Source: Myxococcus xanthus (GTDB lineage: Bacteria; Myxococcota; Myxococcia; Myxococcales; Myxococcaceae). Taken from it: a stretch of 64,000 bases of DNA. The notes below the pieces were generated by a model. The model did not search any database. It saw only the letters and a list, made by a program, of their open reading frames with translations, and was not told the DNA's origin. This document shows, piece by piece, positions 27,522 to 37,867 of this stretch. Made by a program: the position numbers and the translations under genes. The DNA is taken from NCBI RefSeq assembly GCF_006402735.1, contig NZ_CP017174.1:2297001-2361000 (forward strand), given 5' to 3'. Numbering within the stretch: position 1 is the stretch's first letter; every line of letters starts with the position of its first letter.

Positions 27522-28286
27522 TCAGGCGGCGTGGTAGCGGGCCAGCACGCAGGTGACGTTGTCGTTGCCGCCCGCGGCGTTGGCCATGTCGATGAGCTGC
27601 GAGCAGGCCTTCTCCAGCTCCGGCGTGCGCTGCAGGATTTCCTGCATCTGCGCGTCCGTCACCATGCCGCTCAGGCCGTCCGAGCAGAGCAGGAAGACGT
27701 CGTCTTCCTGCGGCTCCACGCGGGAGACATCCACCTGGACGTTCTCCTTCATACCCAGCGCGCGGACGATGACGTTCTTGTGGGGGAAGTTCTCGATTTC
27801 CTCCGGCGAGAGCTTCTTCGCCTTGAGGTAGTCGTTGAGCAGGGAGTGGTCCTCCGTCACCTGCTTCAGGGCGCCGCCGCGGAAGTAGTAGACGCGGCTG
27901 TCACCGACGTGGCCCACGTAGACGGCGCTCTGGGAGAAGTGCACCGTGACGATGGTGGTGCCCATGCCCTTGTATTTGGACTCGGAGCAGGCCTTCTCGA
28001 AGATGCGCGCGTTGGCGAGCTTGATGCCGGTGGCGAGCCGGTTCTCGTCATAGTTGCGCGACTTGTCCATCTTGAAGGGCCAGGTGGAGTCCTGGTCCTT
28101 GGACGTGAGCTTGTAGAACTCGCCGAGCTCGTCCACCGCGATGCGGCTGGCGATTTCTCCAGACGAGTGGCCGCCCATGCCATCCGCCACGCAGAAGAGA
28201 AACTCTTCCGGGAGCATCAGGAAGTTGTCCTCGTTGTGATTCCGCTTCATCCCAACGTGGGTGCTGCCAGCTACCTTGATGCGCAT
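27522..28286 (-). CDS. PP2C-type protein Ser/Thr phosphatase
   Basis: A 254-residue cytoplasmic phosphatase of the PPM/PP2C family (Stp/PrpC size). Metal-binding residues are visible: Asp20 in RNHNEDNF, Asp35-Gly36 in VADGMGGHS, Asp in LLCSDGLSGMV and Asp in GGNDNVT. The HVGDSRVYYFRGG strand is typical. It would remove phosphate from proteins modified by Ser/Thr kinases, which are abundant in myxobacteria; it resembles the class of M. xanthus Pph1, but I cannot confirm orthology. It converges with the murU-like gene. Confidence 0.94.
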   Translation of the reverse strand: MRIKVAGSTHVGMKRNHNEDNFLMLPEEFLFCVADGMGGHSSGEIASRIAVDELGEFYKLTSKDQDSTWPFKMDKSRNYDENRLATGIKLANARIFEKACSESKYKGMGTTIVTVHFSQSAVYVGHVGDSRVYYFRGGALKQVTEDHSLLNDYLKAKKLSPEEIENFPHKNVIVRALGMKENVQVDVSRVEPQEDDVFLLCSDGLSGMVTDAQMQEILQRTPELEKACSQLIDMANAAGGNDNVTCVLARYHAA

Positions 28287-28779: not shown

Positions 28780-29283
28780 ATGCTCGAGCCCCTGGCGCGT
28801 CCTCTCCACCTGGTCCTCGTTTCTCCCCAGATTCCCCCCAACACCGGCAACGTCGCCCGCCTGTGCGCGGTGACCGGTTGCCGGCTCATCCTGGTGGAGC
28901 CCCTGGGCTTCTCCATTGACGACCGGCAGCTCAAGCGGGCGGGGCTGGACTACTGGGACAAGGTATTTCTCCGCCTGTATCCAACCTACGCGGCCTATGT
29001 GGCGGACTACCCGGAGGCCCGGCGGTGGCTGTTCTCGGCCAGGGCTGAGACATCCCTGTATGAGGCCCGGTTCGAGGAGGGGGACCACCTGGTGTTCGGC
29101 TCGGAGGTGTCCGGGCTGGCGCCGGAGGTGATGGAGGGGGGCACGGGGACGGCCGTCACCATTCCCATGATGGAGGACCGCCGGAGCCTGAACCTGTCCA
29201 CGTCGGTGGGAATCGGGACCTATGAGGCTCTGCGACAGGTCCGTTTCACCGGAGCGGGCAGGCAAGCACCCCCGGCAAGTTGA
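28780..29283 (+). CDS. trmL: tRNA (cytidine/uridine-34-2'-O)-methyltransferase TrmL
   Basis: A 167-residue SPOUT methyltransferase that modifies the wobble base of leucine tRNAs. TrmL markers are complete: SPQIPPNTGNVARLCAVTG near the N-terminus, the RAGLDYWDKV helix, FGSEVSGLAPEV and the knot RSLNLSTSVGIGTYEALRQ. Length is standard. The C-terminus is extended slightly. The next gene on the strand encodes a giant repeat protein 34 bases later, probably by chance adjacency. Confidence 0.95.
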   Translation: MLEPLARPLHLVLVSPQIPPNTGNVARLCAVTGCRLILVEPLGFSIDDRQLKRAGLDYWDKVFLRLYPTYAAYVADYPEARRWLFSARAETSLYEARFEEGDHLVFGSEVSGLAPEVMEGGTGTAVTIPMMEDRRSLNLSTSVGIGTYEALRQVRFTGAGRQAPPAS

Positions 29284-29317: not shown

Positions 29318-32300
29318 ATGACCCCGTCGCAGGCCGCCGAAGCGCTCTATTCCGCCCACAAGTCCCGAGCCACCGGGAGGCTCACGCTTTCCTCGGGAGG
29401 GCGCGAGTCCCAGCTGTGGCTGCGTGAGGGGAACCTCGTGGGGACGCAGCTGGGCTTTGGGTTCCAGAGCCCGGCGCAGGCCCTGCTCCAGTCGGGGATG
29501 CTGGATGCGGAGGCGCTGGACACGCTGTGGGCGCGGGGTGGGGCGGGGGCTCCGGACGAGGAGACGCTGGAGGAATTCAACCTGGTGCCGGACGTGGTGG
29601 CGGAGCAGCAGGTGCTCGCGCATGTCCGGCGGTTGAGTGCGCTGGCGGAGCAGGCCGCGTTCGAGCCGGGGACGGTGGAGGCGGAGGGGTTTCAGCCCAT
29701 CGCGGGCGTGCGGGTGGTGCGCGCGGCGCTGGAGGGGCCGATTCATGGCGGCGCCGCGGCGCGAGTGTTCCGGTGTGAGGATGTCGAGGCCTGTGGGCCG
29801 TGGCTCGCGGATGCTTCGGAGCGGGCGTTCCTGGAGACGTTGGCGGAGTTCCGTGAGCCGGAGTCGCTGACGCCCGCGCAGGAAGCGCTGCTGCTCGTGC
29901 TGGAGCGCGAGGGCTGGGTGCAGGCGCTCTCCGTGGAGGACTGGGAGGAGCGCGAGCGGGTTCGACAGGAGGAGGAAGAGGCTCGGCAGCGGGCGGAGGA
30001 GGACGCGCGGCTCGAAGAGGAGCGGCGGCGGGCGGAGGAGGCTCGGCTTGAGGCGGAGCGGCTTGCCGAGGAGGCTCGGCTTGCCGAGGAGGCTCGGCTC
30101 GCGGAGGAGGCTCGGCTCGAGGCGGAGCGCCTGGCGGAAGAAGCTCGACTCGCTGAGGCGGCTCGGCTCGAAGAAGCGCGCCTGGCGGAAGAGGCGCGGC
30201 TCGCCGAAGAAGCGCGCCTGGCTGAAGAGGCTCGGCTGGCGGAAGAAGCGCGGCTCGAAGAAGAGCGTCGCGTGGCCGAAGAGGCTCGCCGCGCGGAAGA
30301 GGCCCGTCTCGCAGAGGTAGCTCGGCTTGAGGCGGAGCGCCTTGCTGAAGAGGAACGGCGTCTCGCGGAAGAGGCGCGGCTCGAGGAGGAGCGGCGTCTC
30401 GCGGAGGAGGCGCGGCTCGAGGAGGAGGCGCGTCTTGCCGAAGAGGCTCGGCTTGAGGCGGAGCGCCTGGCCGAAGAGGCGCGGCTCGCCGAAGAAGCTC
30501 GCCTCGCAGAAGAGGCTCGGCTCGAAGAGGAGCGCCGCCTCGCGGAAGAGGCTCGGCTCGCAGAAGAGGCTCGGCTCGCAGAAGAGGCTCGGCTCGCAGA
30601 AGAGGCCCGCGTAGCCGAAGAAGCTCGGCTGGCTGAAGAGGCTCGGCTCGCGGAAGAGGCCCGGTTGGCGGAAGAAGCGCGGCTCCAAGAAGAGCGCCGC
30701 CTGGCGGAAGAGGCGCGGCTTGAAGAAGAACGCCGCCTTGAAGAAGAGCTTCGTCTGGCGGATGAGGCTCGCCGCGCAGAAGAGGCCCGGCTGGCAGAGG
30801 AAGCTCGACTCGCTGAGGCGGCTCGGCTCGAAGAAGCGCGCCTGGCGGAAGAGGCGCGGCTGGCGGAAGAAGCGCGGCTGGCGGAAGAAGCGCGGCTCGA
30901 AGAAGAGCGTCGCGTGGCCGAAGAGGCTCGCCGCGCGGAAGAGGCCCGTCTCGCAGAGGTAGCTCGGCTTGAGGCGGAGCGCCTTGCTGAAGAGGAACGG
31001 CGTCTCGCGGAAGAGGCGCGGCTCGAGGAGGAGCGGCGTCTCGCGGAGGAGGCGCGGCTCGAGGAGGAGGCGCGTCTTGCCGAAGAGGCTCGGCTTGAGG
31101 CGGAGCGCCTGGCCGAAGAGGCGCGGCTCGCCGAAGAAGCCCGCCTCGCGGAAGAGGCTCGGCTCGCAGAAGAGGCTCGGCTCGCAGAAGAGGCCCGCGT
31201 AGCCGAAGAAGCTCGGCTGGCTGAAGAGGCTCGGCTCGCAGAAGAGGCTCGGCTCGCAGAAGAGGCCCGCGTAGCCGAAGAAGCTCGGCTGGCTGAAGAG
31301 GCTCGGCTCGCGGAAGAGGCTCGGCTCGCGGAAGAGGCCCGGCTGGCTGAAGAGGCGCGTCACCTCGCAGAAGAGGCCCGCCTCGCAGAAGAGGCCCGGC
31401 TTGAAGAGGAGCATCGCCTCGCGGAGGAGGCGCGACTTGCTGAGGAGGCGCGGCTCGAAGAAGAGCGTCGTCTGGCGGAAGAGGCCCGGCTAGAGGCGGA
31501 GCGCCTGGCGGAGGAAGCGCGTCTGGCAGAAGCGGCTCTTCTTGAGGCTGCGCGCCTCGTTGAAGAAGCTCGCCTAGCTGAAGAGGCTCGCCTCGCCGAA
31601 GAAGCTCGTCTGGCTGAAGAGGCTCGGCTCGCTGAAGAAGCCCGGCTCGCTGAAGAAGCGCGCTTGGCGGAAGAGGCTCGGCTTGAAGCCGAACGTGTTG
31701 CAGAAGAATCGCGCTTGGCGGAAGAGGCTCGGCTCGAAGAGGAGGCCCGGCTCGCTGAAGAAGCCCGCTTGGCGGAAGAGGCGCGCCTCGAAGAAGAACG
31801 CCGCCTCGCCGAAGAGCGTCGTCTGGCGGAGGAGGCTCGGCTCGCGGAAGAGGTCCGTCTCGCCGAAGAAGCTCGGGCTGAAGAAGAACGCCGCCTCGCC
31901 GAAGAGGCTCGGTTGGCGGAAGAGTCGCGGCTCGCAGAAGCGGCTCGTGTAGCCGAAGAAGCTCGGCTGGCGGAAGAGGCTCGACTCGAAGAAGAGCGTC
32001 GTCTGGCGGAAGAGGCTCGCCTGGCTGACGAGGCGGCGCGTCTCGCTGAAGAGGCTCGGCTCGAAGAAGAGCGTCGCTTGGCTGAAGAGGCCCATCTCGC
32101 TGAAGAGGCTCGGCTGGCTGAAGAGGCTCGGCTGGCTGAAGAGGCCCGGCTCGCTGAAGAAGCCCGTCTCGCCGAGGAAGTTCGGCTCGCGGAGGAGGCC
32201 CGCCTCGAAGAAGAGCGTCGTTTGGCGGAGGAGGCTCGGCTGGCGGAAGAGGCCCGCCTCGAAGAAGAGCGTCGTCTGGCGGAGGAGGCTCGGCTGGCGG

Positions 32301-34807
32301 AAGAGGCCCGCCTCGCCGAAGAGCGTCGTCTGGCGGAAGAGGCTCGTCTCGAAGAGGAGCGCCGCCTCGAAGAAGAGGCCCGTCTCGCCGAAGAAGCGCG
32401 CCTCGAAGAAGAGGCCCGTCTCGCCGAAGAAGCGCGCCTCGAAGAAGAGGCCCGTCTCGCCGAAGAAGCGCGCCTCGAAGAAGAGGCCCGCATCGCGGAA
32501 GAAGCTCGCCTCGAAGAAGAGCGCCGCCTGGCGGAAGAGGCGCAGCGTGTGGAGGCCGCTCGGCTCGAGGCAGAACGCCTGGCGGAAGAGGCGGAGCGGC
32601 TTGCGGAGGAGGCCCGTCTCGCGGAAGAGGCTCGGCTCGAGGCGGAACGCCGTGCCGAAGAAGCCCGCCTCATCGAGGAGCGCCGTCTCGCGGAGTCCGC
32701 CCGCCTTGCGAGAGAGGCCCGCCGCGCGGAGGAGATCTGGGCCGCGGAGGAGGCCCGTCTCGCCGAGGTCGCGCGCGTCGAGGCAGAAGCCCGCCAGGCC
32801 GAAGAAGCCCGCCAGGCCGAAGAACTGCGCCTGGAGGTCGAACGCCGCCGCGCCGATGCCGTCCGTCGCGGCAAGGAAGCTCGCGCCGCCGAGCAGGCCC
32901 GTCAGGCAGACGAACCCCGTCCCACCGAAGACTCCACGCAGTCCGCCTCCATCCCCGAACTCGCGGCCGCGGACGTCGAGGCCCTCACGCTTGATGTGGG
33001 CGACATCCTGCTCACCGAGCTTCCCGCTCAGCCTTCCGAGGCGGATTCCTGGGCCGGCTCCGTCCAGGACGCCGGTGCATCCGACCTGGACCTGGCCGCT
33101 CTGCCCGAAAGCGCGGACGCCCTGCGAGTCGCCCGGCAGAAGGCCCAGGCCGAGCTCCTCCACGACATGGAGGAGGCCCTGCGCCGCTCGAAGTCCCAGC
33201 CGCTCGAGCCCTGGCTCGCGGACGAGCCGCCCCAGCCGACACCGCCCACCCGGACGCACGACCGTGTCCCGGTCCAGGACGAGCAGTGGCACACCGAGGC
33301 CATCTCCCTCAGCGCTGCGTCCGACACCGAGTCGGAACTCCCGCTGCTGGAAGTCGAACCCGAGCCCGAACTCTGGGCCGTGGCCGAGCCACTGCCCGCG
33401 CCCGCGGCCCGCCCCGCCGCCGCGGGCGAACCTCCGGTCCTCACGCCTGTCGCCGAAGACGACGCGGACATCCTGCTGGAGGCGACCCCCGACGAGGAGG
33501 ACGACGCCAGCTGGGCTACCCAACCGTCCGCGCCCGCGCCGCGCCCGGCCGCACCCAAGTCAGGGGACGAGGACCTCTGGCGCATCGTCGCCTTCGACAA
33601 GGACGAGGGCGCCGACACCCTGACAGCGTCGTTCGAGGCCGCGCTCCTCCAGGTCGATACGCACCTGGAGTCGCTCGTCCGCTCGGATGTCAATCAGGCG
33701 AACGTCGATTTCGACGAGCCTCCTGTCGAGGCCATTGTCGAGGCGACCATCGAACCGGTAGCACCGGATTCATCGGGGGCCTTCCCCGGTGACAACTCAT
33801 GGCCAACTGGCCAGACTGACTGGGACGAGCCGTCCGGAGACCTGGACGACTGGGACTTTGACGAGGACGACGTGGCGGCAGATCCCTCCAACCCCGACGA
33901 GGCAGCAAAGCTCCGGCGGCAGCGTCTCTTGCGCCGCGCCATGGAGAACATGGGTGTCCTCGGTGGGCGCCCGACCGCCGCACCGAGCGCCACGCCCGCG
34001 CCCACGAGCGAACCCGCCGCCGCCCCGGCACCCGCGGCCTCCGAGCCTCCCCGGCCCGACGAGGCCCGCCTGGCCCAGAAGCTCGAGCAGCGCTTCGCGG
34101 ACGTCCAGGCCAAGCGAGACCACTTCTACGTGCTCGGCGTTCCGCAGGACGCCACGCGCGACCAGGTGAAGACCGCCTTCCTCAACCTGGCCAAGATCTT
34201 CCATCCGGACCGCCTGCCGCCGTCGCTGCCCCACATGGCGCCGAAGATCACCGCCGTGTTCGAAGCCATCCGAGAGGCCTACGAGGTCCTCTACGACGAC
34301 ACCCGGCGCAAGACGTACCAGCAGAACCTCCAGGCCCAGCAGGCCCTGCCCAAGCCGCCCGCGTCCGCGCCGACCGCCCCGGTACTCCGCCCGCAGGGCC
34401 GTGCCGACAGCAACGCCGACGACCTCTACAAGATGGGCGAGGTCTTCTTCCGCAAGCGCGACTTCACCACGGCCTCCGACCACTACGACCGCGCCCACGC
34501 GCTGGACCCCAAGCCCCTGTACCTGTCCGCTCGGGCCTGGGCCATCTACATGGATCCGGCGCGCAAGGCGGACATGGCCAAGGCCAAGCAGATGATGGCG
34601 GACGCGGTGCGCGCCGATCCGAATTGTGATCGGGCGCACTACCAGCTCGGCGTCATTGCCCGGGTCGAAGGCGACATGGACCGCGCGGAGCGCTGCTTCC
34701 GCGAGGCCGTGCGCGCCAACCCCAAGCACCTGGAGGCCAACCAGGAGCTGCGGCTCATCGACATGCGCAAGAAGAACCCTCCGAAGAAGGGAGGCTTCTT
34801 CCGCTAA
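29318..34807 (+). CDS. Giant PATAN-like/helical-repeat/J-domain/TPR protein
   Basis: A 1829-residue protein I do not recognise as a named gene. The ATG at 29318 is chosen because upstream codons overlap trmL; the nearest purine tract is distant. The N-terminus (about 1-60) looks like a PATAN/DUF4388 domain (ATGRLTLSSGGRESQLWLREGNLVG). Residues about 206-1202 are almost pure EARLAE/RLEEER repeats, predicted as a very long charged single helix or coiled coil. A Pro/Asp/Glu-rich region follows. A J domain spans about 1600-1675 with the HPD tripeptide at 1629-1631, which stimulates Hsp70. TPR units occupy about 1698-1815. No signal peptide. Probably a cytoplasmic scaffold recruiting DnaK. Confidence 0.88.
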   Translation: MTPSQAAEALYSAHKSRATGRLTLSSGGRESQLWLREGNLVGTQLGFGFQSPAQALLQSGMLDAEALDTLWARGGAGAPDEETLEEFNLVPDVVAEQQVLAHVRRLSALAEQAAFEPGTVEAEGFQPIAGVRVVRAALEGPIHGGAAARVFRCEDVEACGPWLADASERAFLETLAEFREPESLTPAQEALLLVLEREGWVQALSVEDWEERERVRQEEEEARQRAEEDARLEEERRRAEEARLEAERLAEEARLAEEARLAEEARLEAERLAEEARLAEAARLEEARLAEEARLAEEARLAEEARLAEEARLEEERRVAEEARRAEEARLAEVARLEAERLAEEERRLAEEARLEEERRLAEEARLEEEARLAEEARLEAERLAEEARLAEEARLAEEARLEEERRLAEEARLAEEARLAEEARLAEEARVAEEARLAEEARLAEEARLAEEARLQEERRLAEEARLEEERRLEEELRLADEARRAEEARLAEEARLAEAARLEEARLAEEARLAEEARLAEEARLEEERRVAEEARRAEEARLAEVARLEAERLAEEERRLAEEARLEEERRLAEEARLEEEARLAEEARLEAERLAEEARLAEEARLAEEARLAEEARLAEEARVAEEARLAEEARLAEEARLAEEARVAEEARLAEEARLAEEARLAEEARLAEEARHLAEEARLAEEARLEEEHRLAEEARLAEEARLEEERRLAEEARLEAERLAEEARLAEAALLEAARLVEEARLAEEARLAEEARLAEEARLAEEARLAEEARLAEEARLEAERVAEESRLAEEARLEEEARLAEEARLAEEARLEEERRLAEERRLAEEARLAEEVRLAEEARAEEERRLAEEARLAEESRLAEAARVAEEARLAEEARLEEERRLAEEARLADEAARLAEEARLEEERRLAEEAHLAEEARLAEEARLAEEARLAEEARLAEEVRLAEEARLEEERRLAEEARLAEEARLEEERRLAEEARLAEEARLAEERRLAEEARLEEERRLEEEARLAEEARLEEEARLAEEARLEEEARLAEEARLEEEARIAEEARLEEERRLAEEAQRVEAARLEAERLAEEAERLAEEARLAEEARLEAERRAEEARLIEERRLAESARLAREARRAEEIWAAEEARLAEVARVEAEARQAEEARQAEELRLEVERRRADAVRRGKEARAAEQARQADEPRPTEDSTQSASIPELAAADVEALTLDVGDILLTELPAQPSEADSWAGSVQDAGASDLDLAALPESADALRVARQKAQAELLHDMEEALRRSKSQPLEPWLADEPPQPTPPTRTHDRVPVQDEQWHTEAISLSAASDTESELPLLEVEPEPELWAVAEPLPAPAARPAAAGEPPVLTPVAEDDADILLEATPDEEDDASWATQPSAPAPRPAAPKSGDEDLWRIVAFDKDEGADTLTASFEAALLQVDTHLESLVRSDVNQANVDFDEPPVEAIVEATIEPVAPDSSGAFPGDNSWPTGQTDWDEPSGDLDDWDFDEDDVAADPSNPDEAAKLRRQRLLRRAMENMGVLGGRPTAAPSATPAPTSEPAAAPAPAASEPPRPDEARLAQKLEQRFADVQAKRDHFYVLGVPQDATRDQVKTAFLNLAKIFHPDRLPPSLPHMAPKITAVFEAIREAYEVLYDDTRRKTYQQNLQAQQALPKPPASAPTAPVLRPQGRADSNADDLYKMGEVFFRKRDFTTASDHYDRAHALDPKPLYLSARAWAIYMDPARKADMAKAKQMMADAVRADPNCDRAHYQLGVIARVEGDMDRAERCFREAVRANPKHLEANQELRLIDMRKKNPPKKGGFFR
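30140..30498 (+). repeat. Large direct repeat, copy 1
   Basis: This 359-bp block recurs at 30800-31140. The two differ by one 18-bp unit and a few bases near the front; the final 260 or so bases are identical including codon choice, indicating a recent segmental duplication inside the gene. Confidence 0.9.
30800..31140 (+). repeat. Large direct repeat, copy 2
   Basis: Second copy (341 bp) of the block at 30140-30498, lacking one 18-bp unit. Its last 260 bases match copy 1 exactly by eye. Confidence 0.9.

Positions 34808-34990: not shown

Positions 34991-37867
<2,877 letters not shown>

Follow-up and report, generated by a model that had tools for sequence, protein, structure and literature searches.

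A predicted single alpha-helix of about 1000 residues between the DUF4388-type and J-TPR ends of a Myxococcus xanthus protein

The stretch of DNA analysed here (the window, 64,000 nucleotides) corresponds to positions 2,297,001-2,361,000 of the finished 9.32 Mb genome of Myxococcus xanthus. The open reading frame at 29318-34807 of its forward strand is a genuine, intact gene. The start codon is the ATG at 29318, as the same beginning is found in all nine sequences of alignment A1; the longest mechanical open reading frame, starting at 29222, was rejected as the gene start because the orthologues share the ATG at 29318. Among named sequences, the locus is closest to those of Myxococcus sp. CA023 and M. 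xanthus AM003, at 97% over the J-TPR part. The features assigned to the gene and its conserved neighbour, with the evidence used, are as follows.

29318-34807, + strand: whole gene, 1829 residues, DUF4388 - predicted single alpha-helix - linker - J - TPR (open reading frame, Pfam, conserved start)
29318-29653, + strand: N-terminal DUF4388/PATAN-type domain, residues 1-112 (weak Pfam DUF4388 match, family N-termini, AlphaFold)
29654-29932, + strand: second N-terminal subdomain, residues 113-205, mostly helices, low-confidence fold (AlphaFold, conservation in alignment A3)
29933-32914, + strand: charged tract, residues 206-1199, RLAEEA hexads, predicted single alpha-helix (composition, charge order, AlphaFold)
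30224-30524, + strand: first copy of a recent internal duplication, second copy at 30866-31166, 642 bases downstream (best 300-base window 98.3% identical)
32915-34105, + strand: acidic, proline-rich linker, residues 1200-1596, mostly predicted disordered (AlphaFold)
33113-33193, + strand: linker helical island 1, residues 1266-1292 (conservation; pLDDT about 79 at its centre)
33611-33691, + strand: linker helical island 2, residues 1432-1458, LTASFEAAL.QVD.HLE.LVRSD (conservation; low pLDDT, 47-52)
33893-33949, + strand: linker helical island 3, residues 1526-1544, motif RRQRLLxxAMxNMG (conservation into Anaeromyxobacter; pLDDT 49-68)
34118-34318, + strand: J domain, residues 1601-1667, HPD at 34202-34210 (Pfam, AlphaFold, solved-chain matches)
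34415-34774, + strand: TPR array, residues 1700-1819 (Pfam; pLDDT 86-95; Foldseek)
35006-37867, + strand: conserved adjacent gene, 953 residues, receiver - DUF4388 - proline-rich - transmembrane - TPR (Pfam, synteny)

The order of genes at the locus is NTP-transferase, PP2C (minus strand), DUF192 (minus strand), TrmL-type methylase, the gene under study, the receiver-DUF4388-transmembrane-TPR gene, TsaD and RsmA-type methylase, and this order is kept across the Myxococcaceae and largely in Anaeromyxobacter. The neighbours are translation and tRNA genes, together with the receiver-DUF4388 protein, and they lend no genomic support to the polar or motility role suggested in the original prediction; no pilus gene was found among the neighbours scanned. 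In 55 of 56 loci the gene under study is followed immediately, on its own strand, by the receiver-DUF4388 gene; only in L104 is this not so, and there a match occurs within the locus on the opposite strand. Over the first 240 residues of the receiver-DUF4388 protein, identity is 95.8-100% among 20 loci of the genus. Five Anaeromyxobacteraceae loci have the adjacent gene, and in these the identity is 63-69% for four and 47% for L105. The receiver aspartate and lysine are present as judged by eye, and hydropathy indicates one transmembrane segment near residue 720. Adjacency by itself suggests this protein as a likely partner of the J protein.

The PP2C gene nearby should be mxan2044; PMC2887360 describes it and one other PP2C locus as sharing local synteny between M. 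xanthus and A. dehalogenans. Trigger factor, listed as MXAN_2013 in PMC11559001, sits 35 kb upstream here, and we infer from gene order that the gene under study is near MXAN_2047. Among the open-licence PMC papers listed by literature searches there was none on this gene, none for Myxococcus with any of mxan2045-2049, and a single unrelated paper on DUF4388.

A query of the 226 N-terminal residues found matches in 116 of the 145 genomes of the order: 86 among the 96 Myxococcaceae and 30 among the 49 from other families. The ten Myxococcaceae without a match are seven drafts with at least 530 contigs and three genomes of 2.1-2.7 Mb. Sixty loci were read in addition to the window. No finished Myxococcaceae genome among the 20 read has a broken copy of the gene, so that breakage in most relatives, which the original prediction had named as an outcome that would count against it, was not observed. 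Ten of the 18 named-contig loci (L003, L005, L006, L008, L010, L011, L013, L015, L017 and L018) are broken inside the gene, and these contig breaks account for the apparent fragmentation in short-read drafts; another draft, L074, carries a frameshift before the HPD. After exclusion from the 61 sequences of three cut by contig ends (L096, L097 and L107) and of the frameshifted L074, the HPD is present in 56 of the 57 full-length, unshifted syntenic homologues. The one lacking it, L108, belongs to a different family of the order and may represent a DUF4388-TPR relative that has no J domain.

At the N-terminus, DUF4388 (PF14332) matches residues 10-71 of the full protein at E=0.003, below the cut-off; a scan of the N-terminus by itself gives 22 bits, the cut-off being 25. 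The assignment is made because the family N-termini match: among 27 scanned (the window and 26 of the 60 fetched loci, hand-picked for diversity), 21 match DUF4388 at E<=0.01, the best at 1.2e-13, per-member cut-offs not being part of the output. AlphaFold, with a 9-row alignment, models residues 1-112 as a helix, four strands and helices at pLDDT 53-76. Foldseek found no PDB match to this model at E<=0.001, low-probability actins being at the top, a result that is uninformative given the low quality of the model.

The C-terminal end is assigned on stronger matches. DnaJ (PF00226) covers residues 1601-1667 with E=3.9e-13 and 49.7 bits against a cut-off of 27.8, and a sequence search with the J region matched 49 distinct solved chains at E<=0.001, DnaJ family members leading. 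In AlphaFold model 2 (the C-terminal 649 residues, 17 rows) the HPD, residues 1629-1631, falls between helices 434-447 and 458-479 of the model, corresponding to J helices II and III, and the J helices have pLDDT 74-87. TPR_1 matches residues 1772-1804 (E=3.2e-10, 39.8 bits against a cut-off of 27.8). With model 2 as the Foldseek query, TPR proteins made up most of the best matches and no J protein was among the best 50. All 26 C-termini scanned (the window and 25 of the 60 loci) match DnaJ at E<=0.01, and also TPR_2. A DnaJ C-terminal domain or zinc finger was not matched by Pfam anywhere in the full protein, which therefore belongs to class C rather than class A or B. Pfam, the family scans and AlphaFold thus bear out the domain order originally predicted, of a PATAN-like domain, a charged helix, a J domain and TPRs; the HPD is intact as claimed, and the region around it is predicted to fold with the usual J helices.

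The original prediction also regarded a J domain near the C-terminus as unusual, a view that does not hold within this genome. Four other proteins combine DUF4388 with a following J or J-like end, namely L114, L119, L122 and L118 (875, 631, 547 and 1839 residues, respectively, as open frames with unrefined starts), and the first three also carry TPRs. L122 has no Pfam DnaJ match and no HPD, while L118 has HPL in place of HPD and a DUF4388 score of 23.8 bits, just under the cut-off; unlike in the 1829-residue protein, the N-terminus of L118 looks receiver-like by eye and its DUF4388 is preceded by a long coiled-coil-like region. The genome also has other J paralogues (L109-L113, L115-L117, L120 and L121). 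The layout is therefore recurrent in myxobacteria, and the helix is the special feature: none of the four has such a charged-helix tract, and a search with the tract as query gave no other match in the genome at E<=1e-6.

The tract spans 994 residues (206-1199) with no proline and a single glycine. In 980 of these residues there are 343 E, 258 A, 193 R and 143 L, and alanine and leucine together make up 41% of the tract, the hexad of which is RLAEEA. Self-identity at a lag of six residues is 0.69, against 0.25 expected. Pairs of opposite charge number 334 at i,i+3 and 214 at i,i+4, compared with 136 +/- 9 and 137 +/- 9, respectively, in 200 shuffles of the same residues; like-charge i,i+3 pairs number only 7, and 196 of 198 arginines and lysines have an acidic partner at +/-3 or 4. 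AlphaFold coverage extends to about 115 N-terminal residues of the tract and to its end, in single chains only. Within this coverage, residues 206-319 are modelled as one helix (9-row alignment) with pLDDT 95-98 over 221-300, and the C-terminal end of the tract in model 2 has pLDDT 56-64. Disorder of the repeat and an HPD region unable to fold as a J domain, the other two outcomes that would have told against the original prediction, are thus not what is predicted.

In being charged, rich in E and R and free of proline, with i,i+3 and i,i+4 opposite-charge order and no LIVMF seam (a seam test that is weak if alanine is counted), the tract agrees with the single alpha-helix (SAH, ER/K) domains, and residues 206-1199 read as the pattern of a single alpha-helix. 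It differs from those domains in its RLAEEA hexad, its alanine and leucine content and its length of about 1000 residues, and it is known here by prediction; the de novo SAH peptides reported in PMC5347031 have 98 residues.

A repeat of period 6 could be read in another way, since that period is the hexapeptide signature of the left-handed beta-helix, and the protein does match LbH_EIF2B (E=1e-8, below cut-off) and YdcK (E=8.6e-38, but 130 bits against a cut-off of 350). We rejected a beta-helix of hexapeptide repeats as scarcely credible: besides the sub-cut-off scores and the confident AlphaFold helix, the hexad register changes 46 times along the tract, orthologues L097 and L098 have 8-residue units, and the mean Chou-Fasman value is 1.32 for helix against 0.78 for strand. 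Matches to Plasmodium HRP and LED repeats, also below cut-off, were set aside as compositional.

Whether the helix is single or part of a coiled coil, which the original prediction had left as alternatives, was assessed from periodicity. The power of LIVMF residues in the tract at periods 3.5 and 3.6 is 0.42 and 0.24, below random, and 0.27 at the hendecad period of 3.67; the long coiled-coil-like paralogue L118, used as a control whose own signal at 3.5 is modest, gives 1.75 and 1.35. As a hexad corresponds to 600 degrees of helix, the leucines are spread over three faces of it, set at 120 degrees to one another. The heptad or hendecad aliphatic periodicity of a coiled coil is therefore absent from the tract, and of the two alternatives the single-helix pattern is the one favoured. 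When alanine is counted as hydrophobic, the power at 3.5 rises to 0.98, near random, as against 1.33 in the control, and reaches 1.35 and 1.62, above random, in orthologues L069 and L100; a weak alanine seam may accordingly exist, and the tract, modelled as single chains, may dimerise. A coiled coil or side-by-side filament, with the protein acting as a cytoskeletal-like oligomeric scaffold, would accommodate these values, the regular leucine, the great length of the tract and its modelling in single chains only, and coiled-coil receiver proteins such as FrzS and AglZ are polar scaffolds in Myxococcus. Such a filament is nonetheless quite unlikely in view of the leucine distribution, and because lineages with units of 8, 19 or 22 residues retain the charge pattern with no common seam.

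As a single helix, the tract would have a contour of about 149 nm (994 residues x 0.15 nm), in line with the original estimate of over 100 nm. The persistence length of a single alpha-helix is about 15 nm, or 15-25 nm, and with this range the mean end-to-end distance computed for 980 residues is about 63-78 nm. Because this falls well short of the contour, the tract reads as a long semiflexible tether rather than a rod or an exact ruler.

The lengths of the tract point the same way. In the 20 finished Myxococcaceae genomes (one to three contigs) it ranges from 466 to 1293 residues (mean 929, CV 0.22), with 873-1122 in the nine that belong to the genus, and it is absent between the domains in the six Anaeromyxobacteraceae orthologues read, which have 551-607 residues. 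A rigid rod of fixed length setting the distance of the J domain, the ruler of the original prediction, would explain why a long helix lies between two folded modules, and the J protein Zuotin, according to PMC8060413, has a long helix that spans the two ribosomal subunits. Such a ruler is very improbable given this spread of lengths, the bending of single helices far below 150 nm and the roughly 400 mostly disordered residues that follow the helix. Taken as a whole, the original prediction is partly supported.

Selection appears to act on the residues of the tract rather than on its length. The 138 hexads, 71 of them exactly RLAEEA, are encoded by 93 distinct 18-mers, and units differ from one another on average by 0.10, 0.20 and 0.57 at codon positions 1, 2 and 3, respectively, a pattern rather than a dN/dS estimate. 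The DNA of the tract has diverged and its amino acids have not, which indicates selection on the amino acids. None of the 20 finished genomes interrupts the reading frame within the tract or has more than one proline there, and 49 of the 53 Myxococcaceae loci read have a tract stretch of 336 residues or more; the remaining four (L093-L096) have 68-203 residues, L096 being truncated by a contig end. The unit itself changes, with 8 residues in L097 and L098, 22 in part of L098, and periods of 19 and 38 beside 6 in L100, yet the charge order is retained in all three, which argues that the helix and its charges, and not the unit or the length, are conserved. From these patterns and the models, selection appears to keep the tract helix-forming and salt-bridged even as its length and repeat unit change.

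The chief alternative is a nearly neutral tract length. In its full form, the tract would be a spacer grown by slippage, with any length tolerated and no role for the helix, the protein working like the short Anaeromyxobacter orthologues. The absence of the tract from those six orthologues indicates that it is dispensable for the core activity and, with the wide range of lengths, speaks for weak constraint on length; the recent duplication spaced by 642 bases implies that slippage is ongoing. A fully neutral spacer is, however, disfavoured by selection on residue type, as seen in the codon-position differences, the open, proline-poor frame and the charge order that survives a switch of unit, and by retention of the tract across the family, and we consider it unlikely.

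Beyond the helix, most of the linker (1200-1596) has pLDDT under 50 in model 2. The motif of island 3, RRQRLLxxAMxNMG, sits 90-134 residues before the HPD, and the pattern fits 45 of 56 proteins, including all six from Anaeromyxobacteraceae; variants are discernible by eye in six more (L084-L087, L099 and L100), and five (L088, L089 and L091-L093) have it in degraded form or not at all. It is the only clear linker element common to tract-bearing and tract-free orthologues. A second copy was not found in the same genome at E<=1 with a 42-residue spanning query. Island 3 could be a docking helix.

Sequence and models together show an old, conserved pair of ends, a DUF4388-type end and a J-TPR module, which in the Myxococcaceae are joined by a charged, predicted single helix. 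We propose, with roughly even confidence, that the protein is a cytosolic class C J-domain co-chaperone serving as a tethered adaptor for Hsp70 recruitment at a DUF4388-bound site. The DUF4388 domain would dock at a partner site, most simply the adjacent receiver-DUF4388 membrane protein; the J domain would activate a DnaK-family chaperone at the docked site, and the TPRs and linker islands might hold clients or further partners. The helix would be a long semiflexible tether of about 150 nm contour and perhaps 60-80 nm mean end-to-end distance, which would widen the volume searched and keep the chaperone end off its anchor.

Zuotin (Zuo1), of the eukaryotic ribosome-associated complex, is not known to have DUF4388 or TPRs, and its helix is far shorter. 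It is ribosome-bound, and common descent of the two helices is not claimed. As a J co-chaperone whose J domain and far-off binding module are kept apart by a long middle-domain helix, it is a precedent for the principle of a helix-tethered J protein.

If the proposal is correct, the Hsp70-recruiting end would gain a reach equal to a sizeable part of the cell width, and selection would hold on to helix formation and charge order but leave length and repeat unit free to drift. We further conjecture, tentatively and with distinctly less than even confidence, that the Myxococcaceae carry the longest selected single-helix tethers noticed in bacteria (contour about 70-190 nm), with a J domain hung off a response-regulator-linked DUF4388 anchor; 'longest' is itself a conjecture. 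The helix would be the novel feature, the DUF4388-J layout being already ordinary in myxobacteria. The locus offers a natural experiment on tethers, as one gene in the same place in dozens of genomes has, between the same ends, either no helix or one of up to about 1300 residues, and the tract gives biophysics a natural candidate for a single helix of great length. The neighbouring receiver-DUF4388 gene, conserved to an extreme degree, points to a so far unstudied myxobacterial signalling module.

Some known systems share parts of this protein. TopJ, the J protein of the Mycoplasma terminal organelle, shows that a J protein can belong to a polar organelle used in gliding; here only the J region matches, at 42 bits against a model cut-off of 300, and so fails the family cut-off by far. 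The DUF4388/PATAN domain also occurs in PATAN proteins that have been tied to the control of type IV pili. Two PATAN proteins, MXAN_3211 and MXAN_4965, co-occur with SgmX in M. xanthus according to PMC11580455; these are other loci. In PMC11019930, 15 J proteins are predicted in M. xanthus, of which six (MXAN_0750, MXAN_3292, MXAN_3114, MXAN_3349, MXAN_2745 and MXAN_3015) bound DnaK1 or DnaK2 in co-immunoprecipitation. The locus number deduced above is not among the six named there, which is weak evidence against the proposed recruitment, as a large, scarce protein could be missed.

Consensus scans predicted no promoter and no terminator before the gene. Antisense open reading frames of 722, 504 and 649 residues in the tract were ascribed to the composition of the repeat and not taken as genes. 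Two terminator-like sites occur at 34777-34794, on the opposite strand within the gene.

Two paralogues of the focal protein, L118 and L122, are encoded in the same genome.

L118, 767-6283: paralogue, open frame of 1839 residues
L122, 2515-4155: paralogue, DUF4388-TPR protein with a J-like middle

The C-terminal J domain of L118, a protein with a long coiled-coil-like region and a DUF4388-like domain, carries HPL in place of the HPD tripeptide, a substitution that may leave this J domain unable to activate Hsp70. The J-like middle of L122 lacks HPD on reading of the sequence and gave no Pfam DnaJ match in a Pfam scan. Inspection of the sequence of L108, a syntenic DUF4388 homologue from another family of the order (genome G143), likewise revealed no HPD, and its domain content is apparently DUF4388-TPR only. 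Pattern searches of the homologues revealed that, within the linker preceding the focal J domain, conservation of a helix motif reaches Anaeromyxobacter, while the remaining linker is not conserved that far.

33893-33949, inside the focal gene: linker helix motif RRQRLLxxAMxNMG
27522-28286, minus strand: PP2C phosphatase gene (family and synteny)
35006-37867, plus strand: receiver-DUF4388-TM-TPR gene (domain order)

Gene-order comparison places the PP2C gene next to the focal locus over much of the order; judged by synteny, it is probably the mxan2044 described in PMC2887360. A search of open-licence PMC papers retrieved no literature on mxan2045-2049. The first 240 residues of the receiver-DUF4388-TM-TPR protein are unusually conserved (95.8-100% identity, 20 loci of the genus compared). 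A Myxococcus-type locus (L014, 93% identity) also occurs in a record titled Comamonas sp. KCTC 72670, a label that appears mistaken.
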